Shown here one piece after another: positions 7,801-15,466 of a stretch of 64,000 bases of DNA. The notes beneath the pieces are model-generated. The model saw only the letters and a list, made by a program, of their open reading frames with translations. It was not told where the DNA came from and did not search any database. Source of the stretch: Pseudomonadota bacterium. Lineage in GTDB: Bacteria > Pseudomonadota > Gammaproteobacteria > Burkholderiales > Rhodocyclaceae. Each line of letters begins with the position of its first letter. Position 1 is the stretch's first letter. A program made the translations under genes and the position numbers. The DNA is taken from contig JAFEDK010000002.1 in assembly GCA_018241665.1 (NCBI GenBank), positions 124,001 to 188,000 on the forward strand. Direction: 5' to 3'.

Positions 7801-8118
7801 TCAGGTCGTGCCGAAGGTGGTTTCGGCGTCGCCACGTTGTCCGCGGTTGTCGAGCCAGGCGACGTCGATCCGGTCACCGGTCTTGACGTCCTGAAGCTGG
7901 AACGCGAACTGGGGGTTGGCCGATACGGCCGTACCCAGGCCGGCTTCGATCACCGGCCGGCCATTGAGGCTCAGCGTCAGGGAAGTGATGTAGTGAGCGG
8001 GAATGGTCTGGCCCGCCGGATCATGGCGCAGGCCCGACTCCATCGGGTGGGGGATCAGCAACCGGACTTCTCCGGTGCTGCCCTTCAGCGTCGCGCGGAT
8101 CTTGATCGGATCGGACAT
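7801..8118 (-). CDS. soxZ: Sulfur carrier-complex protein SoxZ
   Basis: 105-residue SoxZ. SoxZ pairs with SoxY to make the periplasmic carrier on which sulfane sulfur is oxidised in thiosulfate oxidation. The N-terminal I-K-I-R-A-T-L-K-G and the central H-P-M-E-S-G-L-R region are typical. It has no signal peptide, as is usual: SoxZ is exported with SoxY by the Tat system. It follows soxY with an 8-base gap. No soxA, soxB, soxX or soxCD genes are in the window. Confidence 0.93.
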   Translation of the reverse strand: MSDPIKIRATLKGSTGEVRLLIPHPMESGLRHDPAGQTIPAHYITSLTLSLNGRPVIEAGLGTAVSANPQFAFQLQDVKTGDRIDVAWLDNRGQRGDAETTFGTT

Positions 8119-8126
8119 GGTGTTCC

Positions 8127-8591
8127 TTATGCTCCGCAGCCACCGACAGTGACCTTCACGTCCCGGAATACGGTGTAGAACCGGCCGCCGGCCGTTGCGA
8201 CCAGACGCAGGCGCGAACTCTCGGCCATCTTGATCCGGGTCTGGAAGCGCGGCTGGACTTCCGGACCGAAGCTGAACTGTACGACGAGAGGAAAGGGGTT
8301 CTTGTCCACCAGTACGGACAAGCTTGTGGTGCCCGGGATGGTGCTGATGCCCTCGATCGGAACGGCGGCGCCGTTCTCGGCGATTTCCGGTGCCCTGATC
8401 GTCAGGGCAGCGTTTTGTTCGGCAGCGCCGGCACCGAGTTGGCGCAGGGCGTCGAGAGCCGTTTGGGCTTCGAAGGCTGCGCGCCCGCTGTCCGTGGCGA
8501 GCGCTGTTTGAGGCATGAGCAGACCACTGCCGATGAGCGGGGTTAGGGCCGTGGCGGCGCCGAAGGCCTGCAGAAAGCTCCGGCGGCGCAT
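8127..8591 (-). CDS. soxY: Sulfur carrier-complex protein SoxY
   Basis: 154 residues with a Tat signal at the N-terminus (M-R-R-R-S-F-L-Q-A-F followed by a hydrophobic stretch and A-L-A cleavage site near 32). The C-terminus ends in V-G-G-C-G-A, the swinging arm whose cysteine carries the sulfur substrate; canonical SoxY ends GGCGG with minor variation. It is 3 bases downstream of moaC and directly upstream of soxZ. As an orphan soxYZ pair it may serve a truncated thiosulfate pathway or another sulfur carrier function. Confidence 0.93.
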   Translation of the reverse strand: MRRRSFLQAFGAATALTPLIGSGLLMPQTALATDSGRAAFEAQTALDALRQLGAGAAEQNAALTIRAPEIAENGAAVPIEGISTIPGTTSLSVLVDKNPFPLVVQFSFGPEVQPRFQTRIKMAESSRLRLVATAGGRFYTVFRDVKVTVGGCGA

Positions 8592-9115: not shown

Positions 9116-10555
9116 GTGAAAAATCGACTGATCGCCGCCCTGTTGTGCGTGGCCATGATGCCGCGCGGCTTTGCCCAGAACCTGCCGGAGCTCGGTGACA
9201 GTTCCGCGAGCGACCTTTCCCCGGTTGCCGAGCAGCGCATCGGTGCACAGATCATGCGCGAGATCCGCTGGCGTGATCCCGCCTACCTGCAGGACGCCGA
9301 GATCGAGGACTACCTGAACCACCTCGGTGATCGGTTGGTGGCCGCGGGGGCCGGGGCGGGGCTGCCGTTCGAGTTCTTTGGTGTGAGCGATCCTTCGCTC
9401 AATGCCTTCGCGATGCCCGGCGGCAAGATCGGCGTGCATACCGGGCTGATCGTGGCGGCGCAGAGTGAATCCGAACTCGCCGGTGTGCTGTCCCACGAAA
9501 TCGCCCACGTCACCCAGCACCATATCGCGCGCATGGTGGGCAAACAGAGCCAGACCGGCATCCTGATGCTGGCGTCACTGCTGGTGGCGGTGCTGGCCGC
9601 CAAGTCCAGTTCCCAGGTCAGCCAGGCGGCGATCATGGCCGGCCAGGCGGCGGGCATCAGCACCCAGCTCGCCTACTCGCGGGATTTCGAAAGCGAGGCC
9701 GACCGGCTTGGCGTGCAGAATCTGGGCGCAGCCGGTTTCGACGTGCGCGGCATGTCGAGCTTTTTCGAGCGCCTGCAGAAGAACAGCCGCCTCTACGAGA
9801 ACAGCGCCCCGGCCTATCTGCGGACCCACCCGCTGACCTCCGACCGGATCACCGAGATGGAGGGGCGAGTGATGCAGCTGCCTTACCGCCAGGTGCCGGA
9901 CTCCCTGGATTTCCAGCTCGTGCGCGCCAAGCTCAAGGTTGGCAAGCAGGTGCGCCGCGAGCAGATCGAGGAACTGGAACGCCTGGGACGGACGGCGTCA
10001 CTGGCGGTGCCGGCCCAGTACGAGCTGACCCGGGCTTACCTGGCCGCCAAGCGGCTGGCGGACGCCGACAAGGCAATGGCCGAGCTGCGCAAACGCCGCG
10101 TGGTGTCGCCGATGATCGACGGGCTGGAGGCGGACCTGCGTCTCGCCCACGCCGATCCGGCCGGGGCCGCGAAGATCTTTCGCGAGGCGCGAGCCCGCTT
10201 TCCCCAGTCCCTGCGCCTGATCTACGGCGAACTGGGCGCCCTGGTCGATGGCGGTCGGTACGCGGAAGCGCTTGAACTGGCCAAGGCCGAGGTGCAGACC
10301 CGGCCGGGTAACGCGGCCCTGTGGGAACTGCGTGCCCGGGCGGAGTCGGGGATTGGCAGGCGGCTGGCCCAGCATCGCTCGCTCGGCGAGGTCTATGCGA
10401 TCCAGGGCAATTATGCGGCGTCAGCCGAGCAGCTCACGCTGGCCCAAGGTGCGAACGATGGGGATTTCTTCGAACACTCGGCGGTGGACTCCCGCCTGCG
10501 CGAGGTGCGTGCCCTGCTGGCCGAGCAGATGAAGGAGCGGCGCGAACAGCGCTGA
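9116..10555 (+). CDS. M48-family metalloprotease with TPR repeats (BepA-like)
   Basis: 479 residues starting at GTG. A signal peptide (about 1-20, ending G-F-A-Q) is followed by an M48 zinc metalloprotease domain with H-E-I-A-H at 127-131 and the third ligand region F-E-S-E-A-D at 191-196. The C-terminal 200 residues are Ala/Leu-rich helical repeats of TPR type. This is the architecture of periplasmic BepA (YfgC), which assists and surveys outer-membrane LptD and BAM substrates. The lptF/lptG genes lie about 10 kb away. It ends in a convergent arrangement with the roadblock/GTPase operon. Confidence 0.88.
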
Positions 10556-10566
10556 GCGGCCGGGCT

Positions 10567-11202
10567 TCAGATCCGGCCATAGCGCGTGTAGAGCGCCCAA
10601 ACGAGTTCGGCAAAGGCACGCTGGTTGAAGCGCGGCCGGCCGCTGACCGCCAGTACAAGCCGCGTGCGGCCGACATGCATCGGCCAGAAGCTGAGGCCGC
10701 TTACGCCTGCGGCGTCCACATTGCCCCAACCGTCGAGAAGGTGGGCCCCGAGCTGCGCCAGGGGTGTGGCCTGCCGTTCGGCAACCGACAGGATGTCGGC
10801 ACCGACGGCCGCCAGCGCATCCCCGATTTCAGCTGTATAGCCGGTAACCGCCAGGCAGAAGCCCTGATGGTCGGCCAGCAGGGCATGACCACTGTCGCCG
10901 AGCACCGCCAGATACTGGGGCAGGGTGCTTCCCAAGGCGCCGCTCGGGGCGCTGCGGGGGGATGGCCAGGCTTCGAGGCTGGCATCGTCCTGCAGGGACA
11001 GGAGGGCTTCCAGGGCTTTCTCCGCCGATTTCTCCCCGCTCCATGCAATGGCCGAATCCACGCTCAGCAGCGGGCTCTCGGTTTCCTGGAGAATGCTGCG
11101 CAGGATGCGTCGCCGCGGGCCACCGTCGTCCGCGCGGGCGACGGCCAGCCATGCCCCGTAGGGGGTGACGGCGAGATGGGAGCCGGGGACGATCTCAAGC
11201 AT
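10567..11202 (-). CDS. Unknown protein, last gene of roadblock/GTPase operon
   Basis: 211 residues, no signal peptide, no family I can name with certainty. The C-terminal half (about 95-211) reads like a roadblock/LC7-type fold: a strand ending near L-A-D-H-Q-G-F, then a helix, then a strand and a closing helix F-N-Q-R-A-F-A-E-L-V. This is a judgement by eye. Its start overlaps the end of the GTPase gene by 8 bases, so the two are probably translated together and may bind each other. Roadblock proteins are known GTPase-activating or scaffold partners of MglA-type GTPases, which would fit. Confidence 0.7.
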   Translation of the reverse strand: MLEIVPGSHLAVTPYGAWLAVARADDGGPRRRILRSILQETESPLLSVDSAIAWSGEKSAEKALEALLSLQDDASLEAWPSPRSAPSGALGSTLPQYLAVLGDSGHALLADHQGFCLAVTGYTAEIGDALAAVGADILSVAERQATPLAQLGAHLLDGWGNVDAAGVSGLSFWPMHVGRTRLVLAVSGRPRFNQRAFAELVWALYTRYGRI

Positions 11203-11755
11203 CGCTCAGTCCGGGATTGAGGGTGAACAGGAGCGCCCTGACCAGCATTGCCACGTCTTCGCGGCTGCGCGCGTCGACGCGGAAGACGGCGGGCAGCGGG
11301 CTGTGGCCGAGGTCGGCGAGTCGCGCCCGGTAGGCATCGAGAGCAGGTGCGGGTGCGCGATCCATGTGGGTGATGCCGATGGTGACGGCAGTGCCGGCAA
11401 TGAACTTCGAGAAGGCTGACAGATAGCTCTCCAGGTCGGTGAGCGGATCGGGGCGGGCGTTGTTGATCAGCAGGATCAGGCCGATCCCGCCAGTGCTCAG
11501 GATCTCCCACATGAAGCTGAAGCGCTCCTGGCCCGGGGTGCCGTACAGCATGACCTTCTCGCCGTCTGGCAAGTTGAGTACGCCGTAGTCCATGGCGACG
11601 GTGGTGGTCTTCTTGATGCCGGCGATCTCGTCGCTGGCCAGGGCTTCGGTGCTGACCGGCAGGATGTCGCTCAAGGCATTGATGGCAGTGCTTTTGCCGG
11701 CACCGACGGTGCCGGAGAAGATGATCTTGTTGTGGCGGACGCGTTCAGACTGCAT
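11195..11755 (-). CDS. Small Ras-like GTPase of the conservon/MglA-related type
   Basis: 186 residues with a P-loop G-T-V-G-A-G-K-S-T (15-23), a Thr-rich switch I at 50-52, a switch II motif Y-G-T-P-G-Q-E-R-F (71-79) and a base-recognition-like T-H-M-D (129-132). The Asp normally starting switch II is replaced by Gly and the NKxD motif is altered, both features also seen in the CvnD GTPases of Streptomyces conservons (COG2229). A roadblock/LC7 gene in the same operon strengthens the match. It is cytoplasmic and predicted to be a molecular switch; its effector is unknown. It overlaps both neighbouring genes. Confidence 0.88.
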   Translation of the reverse strand: MQSERVRHNKIIFSGTVGAGKSTAINALSDILPVSTEALASDEIAGIKKTTTVAMDYGVLNLPDGEKVMLYGTPGQERFSFMWEILSTGGIGLILLINNARPDPLTDLESYLSAFSKFIAGTAVTIGITHMDRAPAPALDAYRARLADLGHSPLPAVFRVDARSREDVAMLVRALLFTLNPGLSDA

Positions 11756-12872
11756 TGAGAAGTTTCCTCAGAATGCGGGACAGGATGGAGGGGCGTTGGG
11801 GGGAAGGAGGGCGGTGTGCCTCCGGTGCGATAGCGGGCGGTATTCCTGCCTGGGGCCCGGCGTCGAACAGCCCCGCGAAATGGGCCGACGCGCAAACCGA
11901 AAACACATTGCGTTGCGGAATGTCGAGCCGGGCGGCGAGCTGGACCGGACTGACCCACTCTCGGGTCCACAGGGCGGCGATCCGTAGCGCGTGCGGTGCG
12001 GCCCAGGCGCGTGTGAAATTGGGCCAGGCACGCAGGCGGTGCGGGCGGTAAGGGTCGATACCGGCCGGCAGGCGGCCCCGGGATGCCCAGGCTGCGGTAT
12101 TCCACAGGAGGTCTTCGGCGGCATGGATCGTGTCGCCGCTGGCGGATCCGCTGATGGTGAGGGCATTCACGATGCGGGCGGTGGCGTCCGGCAACTGGGC
12201 CATGGAGAGCGGCCGCAGCTGGGTGTCGCGGAAGCCGGTCACACAGACGGGCTGGGGCAGGGGATGGACGCCGATCAGGCGGGGCAGGCCGGAGAGCACG
12301 TGGGGCCGCCCGGTTCTCAGTGCTTCGTCAAGGGCCCGGGCGAGGTGCCCGACCAGATACAGCTCGGGGGCAAAGAACAGCCGGTCGGGCAGCGCTGCGC
12401 CGGGAACAAGGGGCAGATCCGCCTGGGTGCCGCACAGCTCCGGCTCGTCGTCACCCGGGCGCGGGCGTGATGGGGAGGCCTCGGGGATCGAGATGTTGGA
12501 CGGGGAGACCGAGAGCCGGGCGCGGCTGCGTGTGGCTGCCTGGCCCAGGGCTTCCGGCAGGATGGCGAGATCGAGGGGCTTGCCGAGCGTAAGGTGGTCG
12601 GGATGGCGCGCTTGCAGGCCTTCCGGGCGGAAAGCATAGCCGACGACGCGGACATGCGGGTGGCTGGCGAGCAGGGCGAGGGCCTTGTCGACGCCGGGGC
12701 GGTCGTGGTCGATGAGCGCGATGTCGGCGTCGTCGAGGGATTGAGCGAGGCGGATGCTCCGCTGCCAGTGCCGCTCGACCGACAGGCCGATCAGGCGGGT
12801 GTCCATGCTGCCGATGTGCAACAGGAAGATGGCGGTTGGCGCTGGCGCCGGATTGGGCGAAGGACGGCTCAT
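11745..12872 (-). CDS. Unknown protein with receiver-like N-terminus and C-terminal winged-helix-like region
   Basis: 375 residues. The first 110 resemble a degenerate response-regulator receiver: a strand ending in L-I-D-H-D-R-P-G (53-60) where the phosphoacceptor Asp would sit, and L-G-K-P-L-D-L (96-102) at the place of the conserved receiver Lys-Pro. Residues 110-150 are a low-complexity linker. The region around 285-340 looks like a winged helix, and the tail is a basic helix. None of this names a family, and assignment rests on eye inspection. It overlaps the GTPase start by 11 bases. Confidence 0.7.
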   Translation of the reverse strand: MSRPSPNPAPAPTAIFLLHIGSMDTRLIGLSVERHWQRSIRLAQSLDDADIALIDHDRPGVDKALALLASHPHVRVVGYAFRPEGLQARHPDHLTLGKPLDLAILPEALGQAATRSRARLSVSPSNISIPEASPSRPRPGDDEPELCGTQADLPLVPGAALPDRLFFAPELYLVGHLARALDEALRTGRPHVLSGLPRLIGVHPLPQPVCVTGFRDTQLRPLSMAQLPDATARIVNALTISGSASGDTIHAAEDLLWNTAAWASRGRLPAGIDPYRPHRLRAWPNFTRAWAAPHALRIAALWTREWVSPVQLAARLDIPQRNVFSVCASAHFAGLFDAGPQAGIPPAIAPEAHRPPSPQRPSILSRILRKLLNAV

Positions 12873-12911
12873 GGTGACGGTGCAGGGCGGTGGCCTGGAT
12901 GGCTCGGTGGC

Positions 12912-13400
12912 TCAGGGTGTGGGCAATGGGCCGCGCTCCGGCTTGGCCGCCGCCGGGCGGAGGAAGGCGCGGCTTCCTTCCACTGGGCTGGCCAGGACGA
13001 CGCCGCGCAGGGCGATCTCGGGGGCATGGCGATCGATGCCGCGGTGCAGGCGGGCGTGCAGGTAGATATCCAGGTTGTGCTGCTCTAGGGCTGCGTGATG
13101 TACGTTGAGCACGCGGGTCCGCAGCTCGATTCCGCAGGTGCCCAGGGCGATCCACAGGTCGATGACGGCTGCGGCGGTCTGGGCCGGGTTGCCCAGCTTC
13201 TGCCAGATGGAGATCCTTTGCATGTGCGCATGCAGGTTGCCAGGCCGACGCCCAATCTCGGCGGCCAGCAGCGTGGCTGTGGCGGGTGAGCGCCAGGCGG
13301 CAGAGATGTCCAGGCTGCGGACGGGCAGTCCGAAGTCGGCTGGCGGACTCGGTGTGCGGATCCGGCCAGGGTTGCCAGGGGCCGTGATGAAGGTGTTCAC
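12912..13400 (-). CDS. Unknown protein in roadblock/GTPase operon
   Basis: 162 residues, cytoplasmic by appearance (no signal peptide or membrane segment). A central region (about 45-115) is predicted helical with several His and Leu residues. The N- and C-terminal ends are Pro-rich and probably disordered. Its start overlaps the end of the PhnD-like gene by four bases, which supports it being real. I recognise no family. About 40 bases separate it from the receiver-like gene. Confidence 0.6.
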   Translation of the reverse strand: MNTFITAPGNPGRIRTPSPPADFGLPVRSLDISAAWRSPATATLLAAEIGRRPGNLHAHMQRISIWQKLGNPAQTAAAVIDLWIALGTCGIELRTRVLNVHHAALEQHNLDIYLHARLHRGIDRHAPEIALRGVVLASPVEGSRAFLRPAAAKPERGPLPTP

Positions 13401-14143
13401 CGGGTCAGCGTGGAGATGATGTCGATCATGAACTCCACGTCCTCTTGCTGCACGGCCTGCCAGCGGCTGGCGCCGAGGGCGGACAGCATGGTTTGTCCCC
13501 TGTCGGTTTCATGCATGGACAGGAGGGCGTGCAGAAAATCGTCGGTACGGGAGTGCAGGTCGCGGCCGAGCAAGAATACGTGGTGGATCACCTGGATGTC
13601 GCTGGTGACCAGCGTCCGCAGTTCGCGGCGGACCAGGGACGACAGGCCATGGTAGGCACCGACCGGCATGAAGCCCACGTCGGCCTGTCCGCGCAGGAGA
13701 TCCTTGGCGACCTGGATGTAGGTCTCCTTTTGCTGTTCGATGGTGTTGTCGGCGCTGAGGTTGGCGGGCTCGAGGAGGATGCGGCCTATGGTGTTGACGC
13801 AGGGGTCGTTAGTGCAGGCAATGCGGGTGCCGGGCTGGAGGTCGTGGATGGATTGGGCCGGGTGTCCGAGGGCTGTGACGATGACCATTTCATCGGGCGC
13901 GCCGTCGGGGCGCGCGATGGCGCGGAAACCCTTTTCCCTGACCAGCAGGGAGGCGTCGAAGGGATTGGCGTGGATCAGGTCCACCTGACCGGCTTCGATC
14001 GCTGCCCGTTGCGCGTCGAAGCCGTCGTGCAGTTCGAGATGGATCGGGATGGACAGGGAGCGCTGCAGCCAAGTATTGAAGATGTACCAGTCGGAAATGC
14101 GCTCGGCTGGGAAGCTGGGGCTGACGGTGAAGTTGAAGCTCAT
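13397..14143 (-). CDS. PhnD-like substrate-binding protein lacking a signal peptide
   Basis: 248 residues from the ATG at 14143, which overlaps the PAS gene stop. The sequence has the two-lobe pattern of phosphate/phosphonate ABC binding proteins: N-terminal F-T-V-S-P-S-F-P-A-E, then the D-L-I-H-A-N-P-F-D region (about 53-61), and A-D-V-G-F-M-P-V-G-A-Y in the second lobe. Unlike transported PhnD proteins, it has no export signal or lipobox, and no ABC permease is nearby. It therefore probably binds a small anion inside the cell as a sensor for the adjacent PAS and GTPase proteins. The ligand is unknown. Confidence 0.75.
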   Translation of the reverse strand: MSFNFTVSPSFPAERISDWYIFNTWLQRSLSIPIHLELHDGFDAQRAAIEAGQVDLIHANPFDASLLVREKGFRAIARPDGAPDEMVIVTALGHPAQSIHDLQPGTRIACTNDPCVNTIGRILLEPANLSADNTIEQQKETYIQVAKDLLRGQADVGFMPVGAYHGLSSLVRRELRTLVTSDIQVIHHVFLLGRDLHSRTDDFLHALLSMHETDRGQTMLSALGASRWQAVQQEDVEFMIDIISTLTR

Positions 14144-14619
14144 GACCGGTTCCACTCCCTGTAGTTGGCTTCTGCCTGGGCGACCTTCTCCCGGGAGGGT
14201 TGCCGCCTCACCGAGGTATAGCCGACGATGCGCCCGTCCCGGATGTTGGGGACGATGGTGGCGAACACCCAGTAATGGCCGCCGTCCTTGCGCAGATTCT
14301 TGACGTAGCCGTGCCACTGGCGTCCGCCCTGGACGGTCTCCCACAGCTCGCGGAAGACGGCAGAAGGCATGTCGGGATGGCGCAACAGGCAATGGGGCTG
14401 GCCGATCAGTTCGTCACGGGTGTAGCCCGACATGTCCACGAAGGACTGGTTGCAGTGGGTGATGATGCCGCGAGTGTCCGTGCGCGAAACGATCAGCCGC
14501 CCCTGCGGGTAGGGGGTTTCGATGTGCGTAATGAATACCTGTCGGCGGCTCCCGTCGGCATGATCGAGGCGGTGCCCGGTAACGTCGCCTGCGTCGGTGG
14601 GAGGAGGCATGTCGAGCAT
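14140..14619 (-). CDS. Single PAS domain protein, Aer-type
   Basis: 159 residues containing one PAS domain (about 40-145) much like the N-terminal sensor of the aerotaxis receptor Aer: I-T-H-C-N-Q-S-F-V-D-M-S-G-Y, then E-L-I-G-Q-P-H-C-L-L-R-H-P-D-M-P, and the later W-H-G-Y-V-K-N-L-R-K-D-G-G-H-Y-W. Aer-type PAS domains bind FAD and sense redox. No HAMP, kinase, GGDEF or methyl-accepting domain is attached, so it must signal through partners, plausibly the operon GTPase. The chosen ATG follows a GGAG and sits 13 bases after the roadblock gene end. Confidence 0.8.
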   Translation of the reverse strand: MLDMPPPTDAGDVTGHRLDHADGSRRQVFITHIETPYPQGRLIVSRTDTRGIITHCNQSFVDMSGYTRDELIGQPHCLLRHPDMPSAVFRELWETVQGGRQWHGYVKNLRKDGGHYWVFATIVPNIRDGRIVGYTSVRRQPSREKVAQAEANYREWNRS

Positions 14620-14632
14620 CGGTCGCTCCGGT

Positions 14633-14998
14633 TCAGCCGAGAATGCCGCCAATCGCGTCGGCGGCACGGCGTACGTCGAGGAAGACCAGGCCCAGCTTGG
14701 CGCTGGGCTTGGCCATTACGGTCAGTACCGCATCGGTGCCTGCCTGGACCATCAGTACGTAGCCCCTGGCGCCCTTGATCAGCACCTGCTCAAGATTGCC
14801 GCGGGCGAGTTCCCGTGCGGTGCGGTCGCCGAGGGACAGCATGGCGGCGCTCATCGCACCGACCCGGTCCTCGTCCACGGTATTGGGCAGCAAGGCGGCC
14901 ATCATCAGGCCGTCGGAGGAGATGATGGCCGAAGCCTCGATATCCGCCGAGCTTCCGTTCAGGTCATTGAGCACGGTTTGAAGCATGTCGGATCGCAT
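14633..14998 (-). CDS. Roadblock/LC7 domain protein (MglB/CvnB-like)
   Basis: 121-residue single roadblock/LC7 domain: A-S-A-I-I-S-S-D-G-L-M-M-A (22-34), the helix around A-M-S-A-A-M-L-S-L-G-D-R-T-A (48-61), then L-I-K-G-A-R-G-Y-V-L-M-V and the closing helix. Proteins of this fold dimerise and act as activators or platforms for small GTPases such as MglA and CvnD. It is the first gene of the seven-gene operon whose sixth gene is the GTPase. A palindrome-containing divergent region separates it from tusA. Confidence 0.9.
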   Translation of the reverse strand: MRSDMLQTVLNDLNGSSADIEASAIISSDGLMMAALLPNTVDEDRVGAMSAAMLSLGDRTARELARGNLEQVLIKGARGYVLMVQAGTDAVLTVMAKPSAKLGLVFLDVRRAADAIGGILG

Positions 14999-15080
14999 GT
15001 CGCATTACTTTCGAAGTCGATTGTCCTGTAGCACCCGGACTTAACGGCGATGCCAGTCCGGGTTGTTCGATATATTTCCG

Positions 15081-15107
15081 TGACATCCAGTGAAATATTG
15101 AATGTCA
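15081..15107. promoter_or_regulatory. TGACAT/ATGTCA inverted repeat between roadblock operon and tusA
   Basis: TGACAT at 15081-15086 and ATGTCA at 15102-15107 are perfect inverted arms 15 bases apart in a markedly AT-rich stretch, upstream of both the roadblock operon and tusA. Position suggests a regulator site controlling one or both. No regulator is identified. Confidence 0.35.
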
Positions 15108-15235
15108 TTATTCCATATGTTGAGAGGGTATTTAAGGGCGTTGTCGCAGAAGCAGGGCGTGATATCCGGCAGATGGCCAGTGCCGCCGCGTTAGAATCCG
15201 GGTTTGATTGCCTCAGCACGAGATGGAGCTCGACA

Positions 15236-15466
15236 ATGGATTTCGACAAGGAAGTGGATGCCCGGGGGCTTAACTGCCCGTTGCCGATCCTGCGCGCCAA
15301 GAAGGGATTGGCCGAATTGCAGGCCGGGCAGGTGATGCGCGTGCTGGCCACCGACCCGGGGTCGGTCAAGGACTTCGCTGCCTTTGCCCGCCAGACGGGC
15401 AATGAGCTGATCGGGCAGCAGGAGTTGCCCGATGGAGCTTTTGAGTTCTTCCTTCGCCGCAAGTAG
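15236..15466 (+). CDS. tusA: TusA-family sulfurtransferase
   Basis: 76 residues of the SirA/TusA family with the active-site motif C-P-L-P at 14-17, in the context G-L-N-C-P-L-P. TusA relays persulfide sulfur, for example to thiolated tRNA, molybdenum cofactor or dissimilatory sulfur routes. The ATG was selected because GGAG precedes it and it yields the usual short protein; the frame extends further upstream without a family match. A strong terminator follows the stop. Confidence 0.88.
   Translation: MDFDKEVDARGLNCPLPILRAKKGLAELQAGQVMRVLATDPGSVKDFAAFARQTGNELIGQQELPDGAFEFFLRRK

Follow-up and report, generated by a model that had tools for sequence, protein, structure and literature searches.

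Which signals reach the small GTPase encoded in a packed block of seven genes of a Zoogloea genome, and does the block belong to a system that already has a name? The block lies on the minus strand at 10567..14998 of the window analysed, a 64,000-nt stretch of contig JAFEDK010000002.1 (GCA_018241665.1, positions 124,001-188,000). A first-pass annotation had described seven minus-strand genes in which a roadblock protein and a GTPase are joined to a PAS protein and a cytosolic binding protein, with no kinase. All of this was borne out: the block is real and conserved, and a family scan of its seven proteins revealed no sensor histidine kinase (CvnA). The homologue search that the annotation had proposed as a check recovered all block families as a group in further beta- and gammaproteobacteria. 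A scan of 10450-15300 detected no sigma-70-like promoter and no terminator-like site on the minus strand.

A Group 3 MglA core

We compared the G2 and G3 motifs of the GTPase (186 aa; 11195..11755, minus strand) with those of 95 homologues, in an alignment that was filtered by score and length. Members of other MglA groups may be caught by its profile too, and a script chose the start codons of homologues for the family alignments. G3, the switch II motif, reads YGTPGQERF (residues 71-79; 11519..11545, minus strand), G2 is TTT, with Thr and not Arg, G4 is THMD and G5 is VDARS. The G-T-P-G-Q-E-R-F and the altered NKxD that had earlier been likened to CvnD are both there. D161 and R163 are present in 100% of the 95 homologues, some of which have TKTD in G4. 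According to the main text of Wuichet & Sogaard-Andersen 2014 (PMC4316618) on the Group 3 MglA system of beta/gammaproteobacteria, Group 3 is marked by GTPGQ at G3, Thr replacing Arg at G2, G4 often without Lys and DAR in G5, and Group 1 by TVPGQ and Arg at G2. Neither Group 1 mark was seen in our GTPase or its homologues. Judged by its motifs, the GTPase is a Ras-like protein of the Group 3 MglA type.

The 375-aa protein (11745..12872, minus strand) has, in its sequence and structure model, a receiver-like N-terminus (residues 13-118; 12519..12836, minus strand) and an HTH-type C-terminus, with model helices at residues 295-332 (11877..11990, minus strand), a part that the fold search barely probed. 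The normal acidic pair is missing from the receiver-like domain. Its C-terminal half gave a weak end-to-end profile match to CvnC (probability 36, E 3.9e-4), where five unrelated pairs used as a baseline gave E values of at least 0.16; the homologue set comprised 91 distinct sequences after score and length filters. A conserved basic helix, which had the look of one that might target a membrane, lies at residues 363-374 (11751..11786, minus strand), and the C-terminal tails were in the top 5% of shuffles for amphipathicity in 26 of 92 cases (median fraction 0.21). The protein fits the Group 3 neighbour described in the main text of PMC4316618, which has a receiver-like N-terminus, a variable linker and a wHTH-like C-terminus.

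The block encodes two roadblock proteins. One, of 121 aa and MglB type (14633..14998, minus strand), is the only Robl_LC7 match in its own genome and is 91-99% identical across eight congeners. The other, of 211 aa (10567..11202, minus strand), had been annotated as of unknown kind. Profile comparison of the two proteins failed (probability 1.6, and 3.3 when the alignments were widened to 72 and 75 sequences), and the identity of the 211-aa protein was therefore settled by its structure model, which has a roadblock fold (residues 87-210; 10573..10944, minus strand). In Foldseek its best E-value was 7.9e-4, with one row below 0.001, and the best 50 of 422 matches were roadblock/LC7-type proteins, including what we take to be Ragulator parts. 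Going by the model, the 211-aa protein is a second roadblock (MglB-type) protein. A few other entries also appear among the fold matches, for example Mon1-Ccz1 and a Rag-type GTPase.

The main text of PMC4316618 reports one or two coupled MglB proteins in Group 3 systems and Neisseria members in the Group 3 clade. The GTPase motifs, the receiver/wHTH protein, the coupled MglB proteins and the beta/gamma range are thus common to both, and the core of the block (GTPase, 375-aa protein and two roadblocks) is, on sequence and predicted fold, not new but the named Group 3 MglA system. The first-pass annotation, which knew of no named system of such composition, does not stand for the core; it stands for the addition of PAS and PhnD-like proteins, which was not found in print. 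These two proteins, the 162-aa protein and the efflux-linked core copies described below are unnamed in the main text of PMC4316618, where 'PAS', 'phosphonate' and 'periplasmic' occur zero times (figures and supplementary neighbourhood tables are separate from that text). A literature search, which covered few subscription papers, found no paper that connects PAS or PhnD proteins with an operon for a roadblock protein and a GTPase. Group 3 MglA systems are present in many beta- and gammaproteobacteria, including Neisseria, and the searchable literature yielded a single functional study, on a bee symbiont, with no input described.

The putative sensory part and its distribution

The PAS protein (159 aa; 14140..14619, minus strand) has Aer as its closest solved relative (8dik, 1.5e-39). 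In the Aer receptor the PAS domain is joined to a chemoreceptor signalling domain, whereas the block protein lacks HAMP and chemoreceptor parts and consists of a PAS domain alone with its own N-terminal extension, which is common to its homologues. Thirty-one PAS homologues retain an RHPxMP stretch, which presumably has a role in FAD binding. The PhnD-like protein (248 aa; 13397..14143, minus strand) belongs to the same family, PF12974, as PhnD and PtxB. Those proteins, however, are exported and work with an ABC permease and ATPase, whereas the block protein has no signal peptide recognisable by eye and no transporter gene is found among the block's seven. It also differs from PtxB at an aligned loop and histidine, which we take to be involved in ligand binding. 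The conserved 162-aa accessory protein (12912..13400, minus strand, GTG start) has longer homologues elsewhere, with a weak TPR-like end.

Single-sequence searches gave one weak order-level GTPase match (5e-17) and four weaker ones, suggesting a system confined to the genus; profile searches overturned this. Over part of the range of the Group 3 system, the PAS, signal-less PhnD-like and 162-aa proteins belong to it, with their genes in circularly permuted orders. The GTPase was also present in 11 of 12 PhnD-positive genomes of an order sample (300 searched) and in 17 of 20 of a class sample (369 searched), with PhnD-only genomes (G330, G479, G686 and G697) counted as misses and phylogeny allowed for by counting genera in the order sample only. 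In one of these, G479, the six remaining families stand together and the GTPase search gave no match.

PAS and PhnD are optional. Of 44 loci outside Zoogloea (from 63, L117-L179, less the 19 of the Zoogloea group; in 20 of the 44, one side spans less than 6 kb), 11 carry both and the rest neither, so that in most loci the core stands without them close by. The locus listing kept 80 of 91 confirmed loci. For PhnD, 37 of 39 loci were used; L183 and L218 fell outside the position filter and duplicate the sites of L192 and L211. At PhnD sites scoring below 196 bits, PAS is adjacent in 4 of 19 and a roadblock gene in 10 of 19. Among seven Neisseria-like genomes, PAS and PhnD are found in two; since a second roadblock gene is found in only one, the link between an orphan MglB and PAS/PhnD in this group rests on one genome. 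An internal stop interrupts the PAS homologue of the Neisseria-like genome that has the separate unit.

Possible input and output of the switch

We propose that the block is a Group 3 MglA switch on which soluble redox and ligand sensors act via the roadblock pair, with the 375-aa protein as readout, an explanation that, taken whole, we hold to be evenly balanced between right and wrong. The PAS protein would read redox state, probably with FAD by analogy with Aer, and the PhnD-like protein would bind a small cytosolic ligand. The 121-aa roadblock, which travels with both, may be their point of entry. The roadblock pair would be a GAP on the GTPase, biased by this input, and the 375-aa protein would read the state of the GTPase and, by analogy to CvnC/MfpC, may also load it. 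Output would pass through the 375-aa protein, most likely as changed gene expression, and the role that the sensor kinase CvnA has in conservons would here fall to the two soluble sensors. Several of the observations above weigh against this reading: PAS and PhnD are missing near most non-Zoogloea cores, PAS and roadblock genes are missing beside many of the lower-scoring PhnD sites, G479 gave no GTPase match, one PAS homologue has an internal stop, the CvnC likeness is weak, and the receiver-like domain is without its acidic pair.

More tentatively, with the balance somewhat against it, the block may represent a beta/gamma G-protein system in which the conservon membrane kinase has been replaced by two soluble cytosolic sensors, a flavin-PAS redox sensor and a transport-type binding protein turned intracellular ligand sensor, acting via one half of a roadblock heterodimer on the Ras-like GTPase. 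Roadblock, PAS and PhnD would then be a detachable input cassette, and the 375-aa protein, GTPase and 211-aa protein a portable core, whose duplicate in Zoogloea would have been co-opted by a metal-type efflux operon. Should PAS and PhnD prove to be the input, what a bacterial Ras-like switch senses could be tested on soluble proteins in purified form, with no need of a membrane kinase. A further implication would be that a roadblock protein can serve as a sensor's route to a small GTPase, and it would then be worth seeking PAS and PhnD next to 'orphan' MglB proteins.

It is possible, though we think it unlikely, that the block serves polarity or motility. The GTPase would then set where or how type IV pili work, as MglA/MglB do in Myxococcus, the 375-aa protein would be an effector or scaffold and not a transcription factor, and PAS and PhnD would supply surface movement with aerotaxis-like or nutrient signals. 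Carriers of the system include Beggiatoa, Thiomargarita and Thioploca records, and these bacteria glide. In the class sample a PilT-family gene was present in 66 of 66 GTPase-positive and 243 of 303 other genomes (Fisher 2e-6). PilT is, however, a poor proxy, because it occurs in 309 of the 369 genomes and E. coli, too, gives matches to the family, and genome size confounds the test, since 14 of the 20 PilT-negative genomes listed (60 in all) are of 2.1 Mb or less. The flanks, surveyed as 116 proteins (150-700 aa) from 20 loci, include PilJ-type domains in three proteins, along with response regulators (four), histidine-kinase ATPase domains (three) and GGDEF (two); the 25 of 94 flanking families listed, each in at most four proteins, are mostly housekeeping and include no gene of the pilus machinery. 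The Snodgrassella mgl operon resembles ours in its Group 3 mglA and two coupled mglB genes, and there is also an orphan mglB, mutation of which produced motile flares on soft agar and raised fitness in the non-native host; the evidence comes from these orphan mutants, and 'PAS domain' has zero matches in the text available (PMC11112851).

A second core copy, which speaks against polarity, sits ahead of an RND efflux operon in many Zoogloea genomes. Paralogues of the 375-aa protein precede the efflux operon in 17 of 17 named paralogous loci, closely in 16, and six of these loci are without the GTPase. This observation, the HTH-type helices and the transcriptional output suggested for Group 3 in the main text of PMC4316618 would fit a 375-aa protein that is a direct DNA-binding regulator, with the GTPase as local co-regulator and each copy controlling its own operon. 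We regard this as improbable, as nothing in the main block stands out as a client gene and the weakly CvnC-like half of the protein points to CvnC, which is likely a GEF.

PAS and PhnD might instead be unrelated neighbours, co-transcribed by chance, as their absence from 33 of the 44 non-Zoogloea loci might suggest. This is very improbable, since they lie next to each other in permuted gene orders and in distant lineages, the PAS proteins have an N-terminal extension in common, and the PhnD family co-occurs with the GTPase.

Conservons and other related systems

The block had been called conservon-like, which holds for its architecture and not for membership. Like conservons and Mfp it has a roadblock protein and a CvnD-like GTPase, besides the weak CvnC likeness; in contrast to conservons it has no kinase and no Pfam match to DUF742 among its seven proteins, and it has an extra receiver-like domain, two roadblocks and soluble sensor-type proteins. 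In a tree that left Groups 1 and 4 unsampled, 41 beta/gamma GTPases, including our own and a Neisseria gonorrhoeae piece, split from six CvnD and two Deinococcota sequences with support of 100, placement inside the 41 being mostly weakly supported. A true conservon acquired from Actinomycetota, which the shared motifs and the weakly CvnC-like C-terminus might evoke, is contradicted by this tree and hardly credible.

MglA/MglB of Myxococcus and Thermus (Group 1) likewise pair a Ras-like GTPase with a roadblock partner, but differ from the block in their GTPase marks and in the block's sensor-type proteins. An annotated locus on a Thermus brockianus plasmid (L291) resembles the block in that genes for a GTPase and a roadblock protein lie close to what is probably a soluble gas/redox sensor (a protoglobin); it has, however, a DUF4388 protein in place of the 375-aa protein, and its GTPase groups with Deinococcota.

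Make-up and variants of the block

The block is a real, conserved seven-gene G-protein system. As claimed in the first-pass annotation, seven ORFs run from 14998 to 10567 on the minus strand; four neighbouring pairs overlap, and short gaps separate the other two. Pfam scans of the seven proteins bore out the roadblock/LC7 (121 aa), PAS, PhnD-like and GTPase identities; Pfam and NCBIfam gave no match worth naming for the 162-, 375- and 211-aa proteins. By eye, the block is flanked on one side by a TusA-like gene that runs divergently from about 15242 and on the other by a convergent gene for an M48-like peptidase. The order of the flanking genes is mostly preserved in the stretches examined from congeners, most of which go under the name Zoogloea. 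The source genome (5.4 Mb) has one match each to the roadblock, GTPase and PhnD profiles, every one inside the block; the 375-aa protein likewise has a single match there. At 7801-8591 of the window, SoxZ- and SoxY-like ORFs (by eye) adjoin a MoaC-like gene.

Co-conservation, the check proposed in that annotation, held: among the named loci that encode the 375-aa protein (80 used out of 91) the seven genes recur together in two orders, circular permutations of each other. The order roadblock-PAS-PhnD-162-375-GTPase-211 is found in Zoogloea, L117, L118 and L130 (Methylophilaceae bacterium), and 162-375-GTPase-211-roadblock-PAS-PhnD in the gammaproteobacterial records L148, L151, L169, L170 and L178; L167 and L171 have the latter with the front end missing, and L175 has the 162-aa gene in last place. 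Non-Zoogloea loci hold the GTPase (44/44), the 121-aa roadblock (38/44), the 211-aa roadblock (31/44) and the 162-aa gene (29/44). PAS and PhnD occur in the same 11/44 loci (5/24 once the 20/44 near a contig end are set aside), and the pair is therefore an optional addition to the core. In L140 a 162-aa homologue (1418-1825) lies on the strand opposite to the core; thus this gene is not always in the core's operon. L117 carries an extra roadblock-375aa-GTPase set (12717-15023) immediately after its seven-gene block.

The core as a Group 3 MglA system

According to the available text of Wuichet and Sogaard-Andersen (PMC4316618), Group 3 MglA systems come from beta/gammaproteobacteria and carry one or two MglBs, a GTPase that has a GTPGQ motif, Thr in the G2 position, a G4 often without Lys and DAR in G5, and a partner protein with a receiver-like N-terminus, a variable linker and a wHTH-like C-terminus. 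The block has all these features, the wHTH part being judged from a structure model alone. The core is, on that description, an already named system. The annotation had found no named system of this composition; this still stands for the sensory make-up (PAS and PhnD with roadblock/GTPase), which was not found in the literature that could be searched and, within it, goes beyond published description.

The "conservon-like" label holds in part. In profile comparison the GTPase scored 4.8e-35 against CvnD and the 121-aa roadblock 5.4e-14 against CvnB. Weaker likenesses were those of the 375-aa C-terminal half to CvnC (3.9e-4, probability 36, running to the C-terminus) and of the 211-aa protein to CvnB (6.3e-4, probability 28); the 211-aa protein reached just 0.013 against the 121-aa protein, and five unrelated pairs all gave 0.16 or more. 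However, in a tree of 49 GTPases, with Groups 1 and 4 unsampled, 41 beta/gamma sequences (including the block's own and a Neisseria gonorrhoeae piece) separate from six CvnD and two Deinococcota with support 100. In one N. gonorrhoeae strain (L268) the GTPase and 211-aa homologies each span two reading frames, which suggests that the system has decayed there.

The PAS and PhnD-like proteins

A search of 300 genomes from the order gave matches to the GTPase profile in 31, to the PhnD profile in 12 and to both in 11 (Fisher 2.6e-11; by genus, own genus excluded, 8/9, 1.8e-7); for 369 genomes from the class the figures were 66, 20 and 17 (2.2e-11). PhnD sites of at least 196 bits adjoin PAS in 18/18 cases and a roadblock gene in 17/18, against 4/19 and 10/19 below 196 bits. 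The GTPase system is linked to one particular PhnD subfamily, and less so to more distant relatives. Genome G479 clusters the other six genes (L256) with no GTPase match anywhere by profile search, which speaks against strict dependence of those families on the GTPase. PhnD-like genes form a tandem pair in L181, L182, L183 and L187.

Among solved structures Aer is nearest to the PAS protein (8dik, 1.5e-39; profile 1.9e-42), and most of its best matches in a plasmid collection carry the annotation methyl-accepting chemotaxis protein; homologues share its N-terminal extension. PhnD-like homologues start near the first strand, with no signal peptide by eye, and the block's protein differs from PtxB at the loop and histidine positions, where aligned. 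Redox sensing and binding of a cytosolic ligand, respectively, are reasonable but unproven guesses. Both genes are absent from 5/7 Neisseria-like genomes; in another, the roadblock, PAS and PhnD genes form a unit of their own some 225 kb away from the core (L248, L249), and the PAS homologue there carries an internal stop. An orphan MglB of Group 3 in Snodgrassella influences both soft-agar spreading and the bacterium's fitness when its host is non-native (PMC11112851, available text). A Thermus brockianus plasmid (L291:845-3222) has a row of DUF4388, MglA-type GTPase, protoglobin, hypothetical and roadblock genes, a further GTPase/roadblock set with a likely soluble gas or redox sensor.

Proposed mechanism and output

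In the mycobacterial Mfp conservon, CvnB is a GAP and CvnC likely a GEF (PMC13343842, available text). Following that analogy, in our preferred mechanism the 121- and 211-aa roadblock proteins would act as GAP and the 375-aa protein as GEF or effector, and PAS and PhnD would occupy the place of the conservon kinase; beyond the seven proteins forming one system, we infer every step.

Zoogloea congeners carry a paralogous core upstream of an OEP/HlyD/RND operon, which lends support, short of proof, to the idea that the 375-aa protein controls nearby genes. A pilus role for the G-protein system would fit the presence of PilT in every GTPase-positive genome of the class sample (66/66, against 243/303 others), but both genome size and the commonness of PilT confound this association. 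As to nearby-gene control, an OEP gene lies downstream on the same strand in 17/17 named paralogous loci, and in 16/17 its distance from the last core gene is about 0.55 kb or less; the GTPase is absent from 6/17, and the 162- and 211-aa genes are found in 5. The three paralogous GTPases sampled form one clade (support 100) beside the main-block GTPases, and the L032 pump is of CusA/CzcA type (TIGR00914, 976 bits, cut-off 701). The congener loci L032, L036, L154, L157, L165, L176 and L179 have a second core (162-375-GTPase-211) immediately upstream of an RND-type efflux operon, a position at which some congeners retain the 375-aa gene alone.
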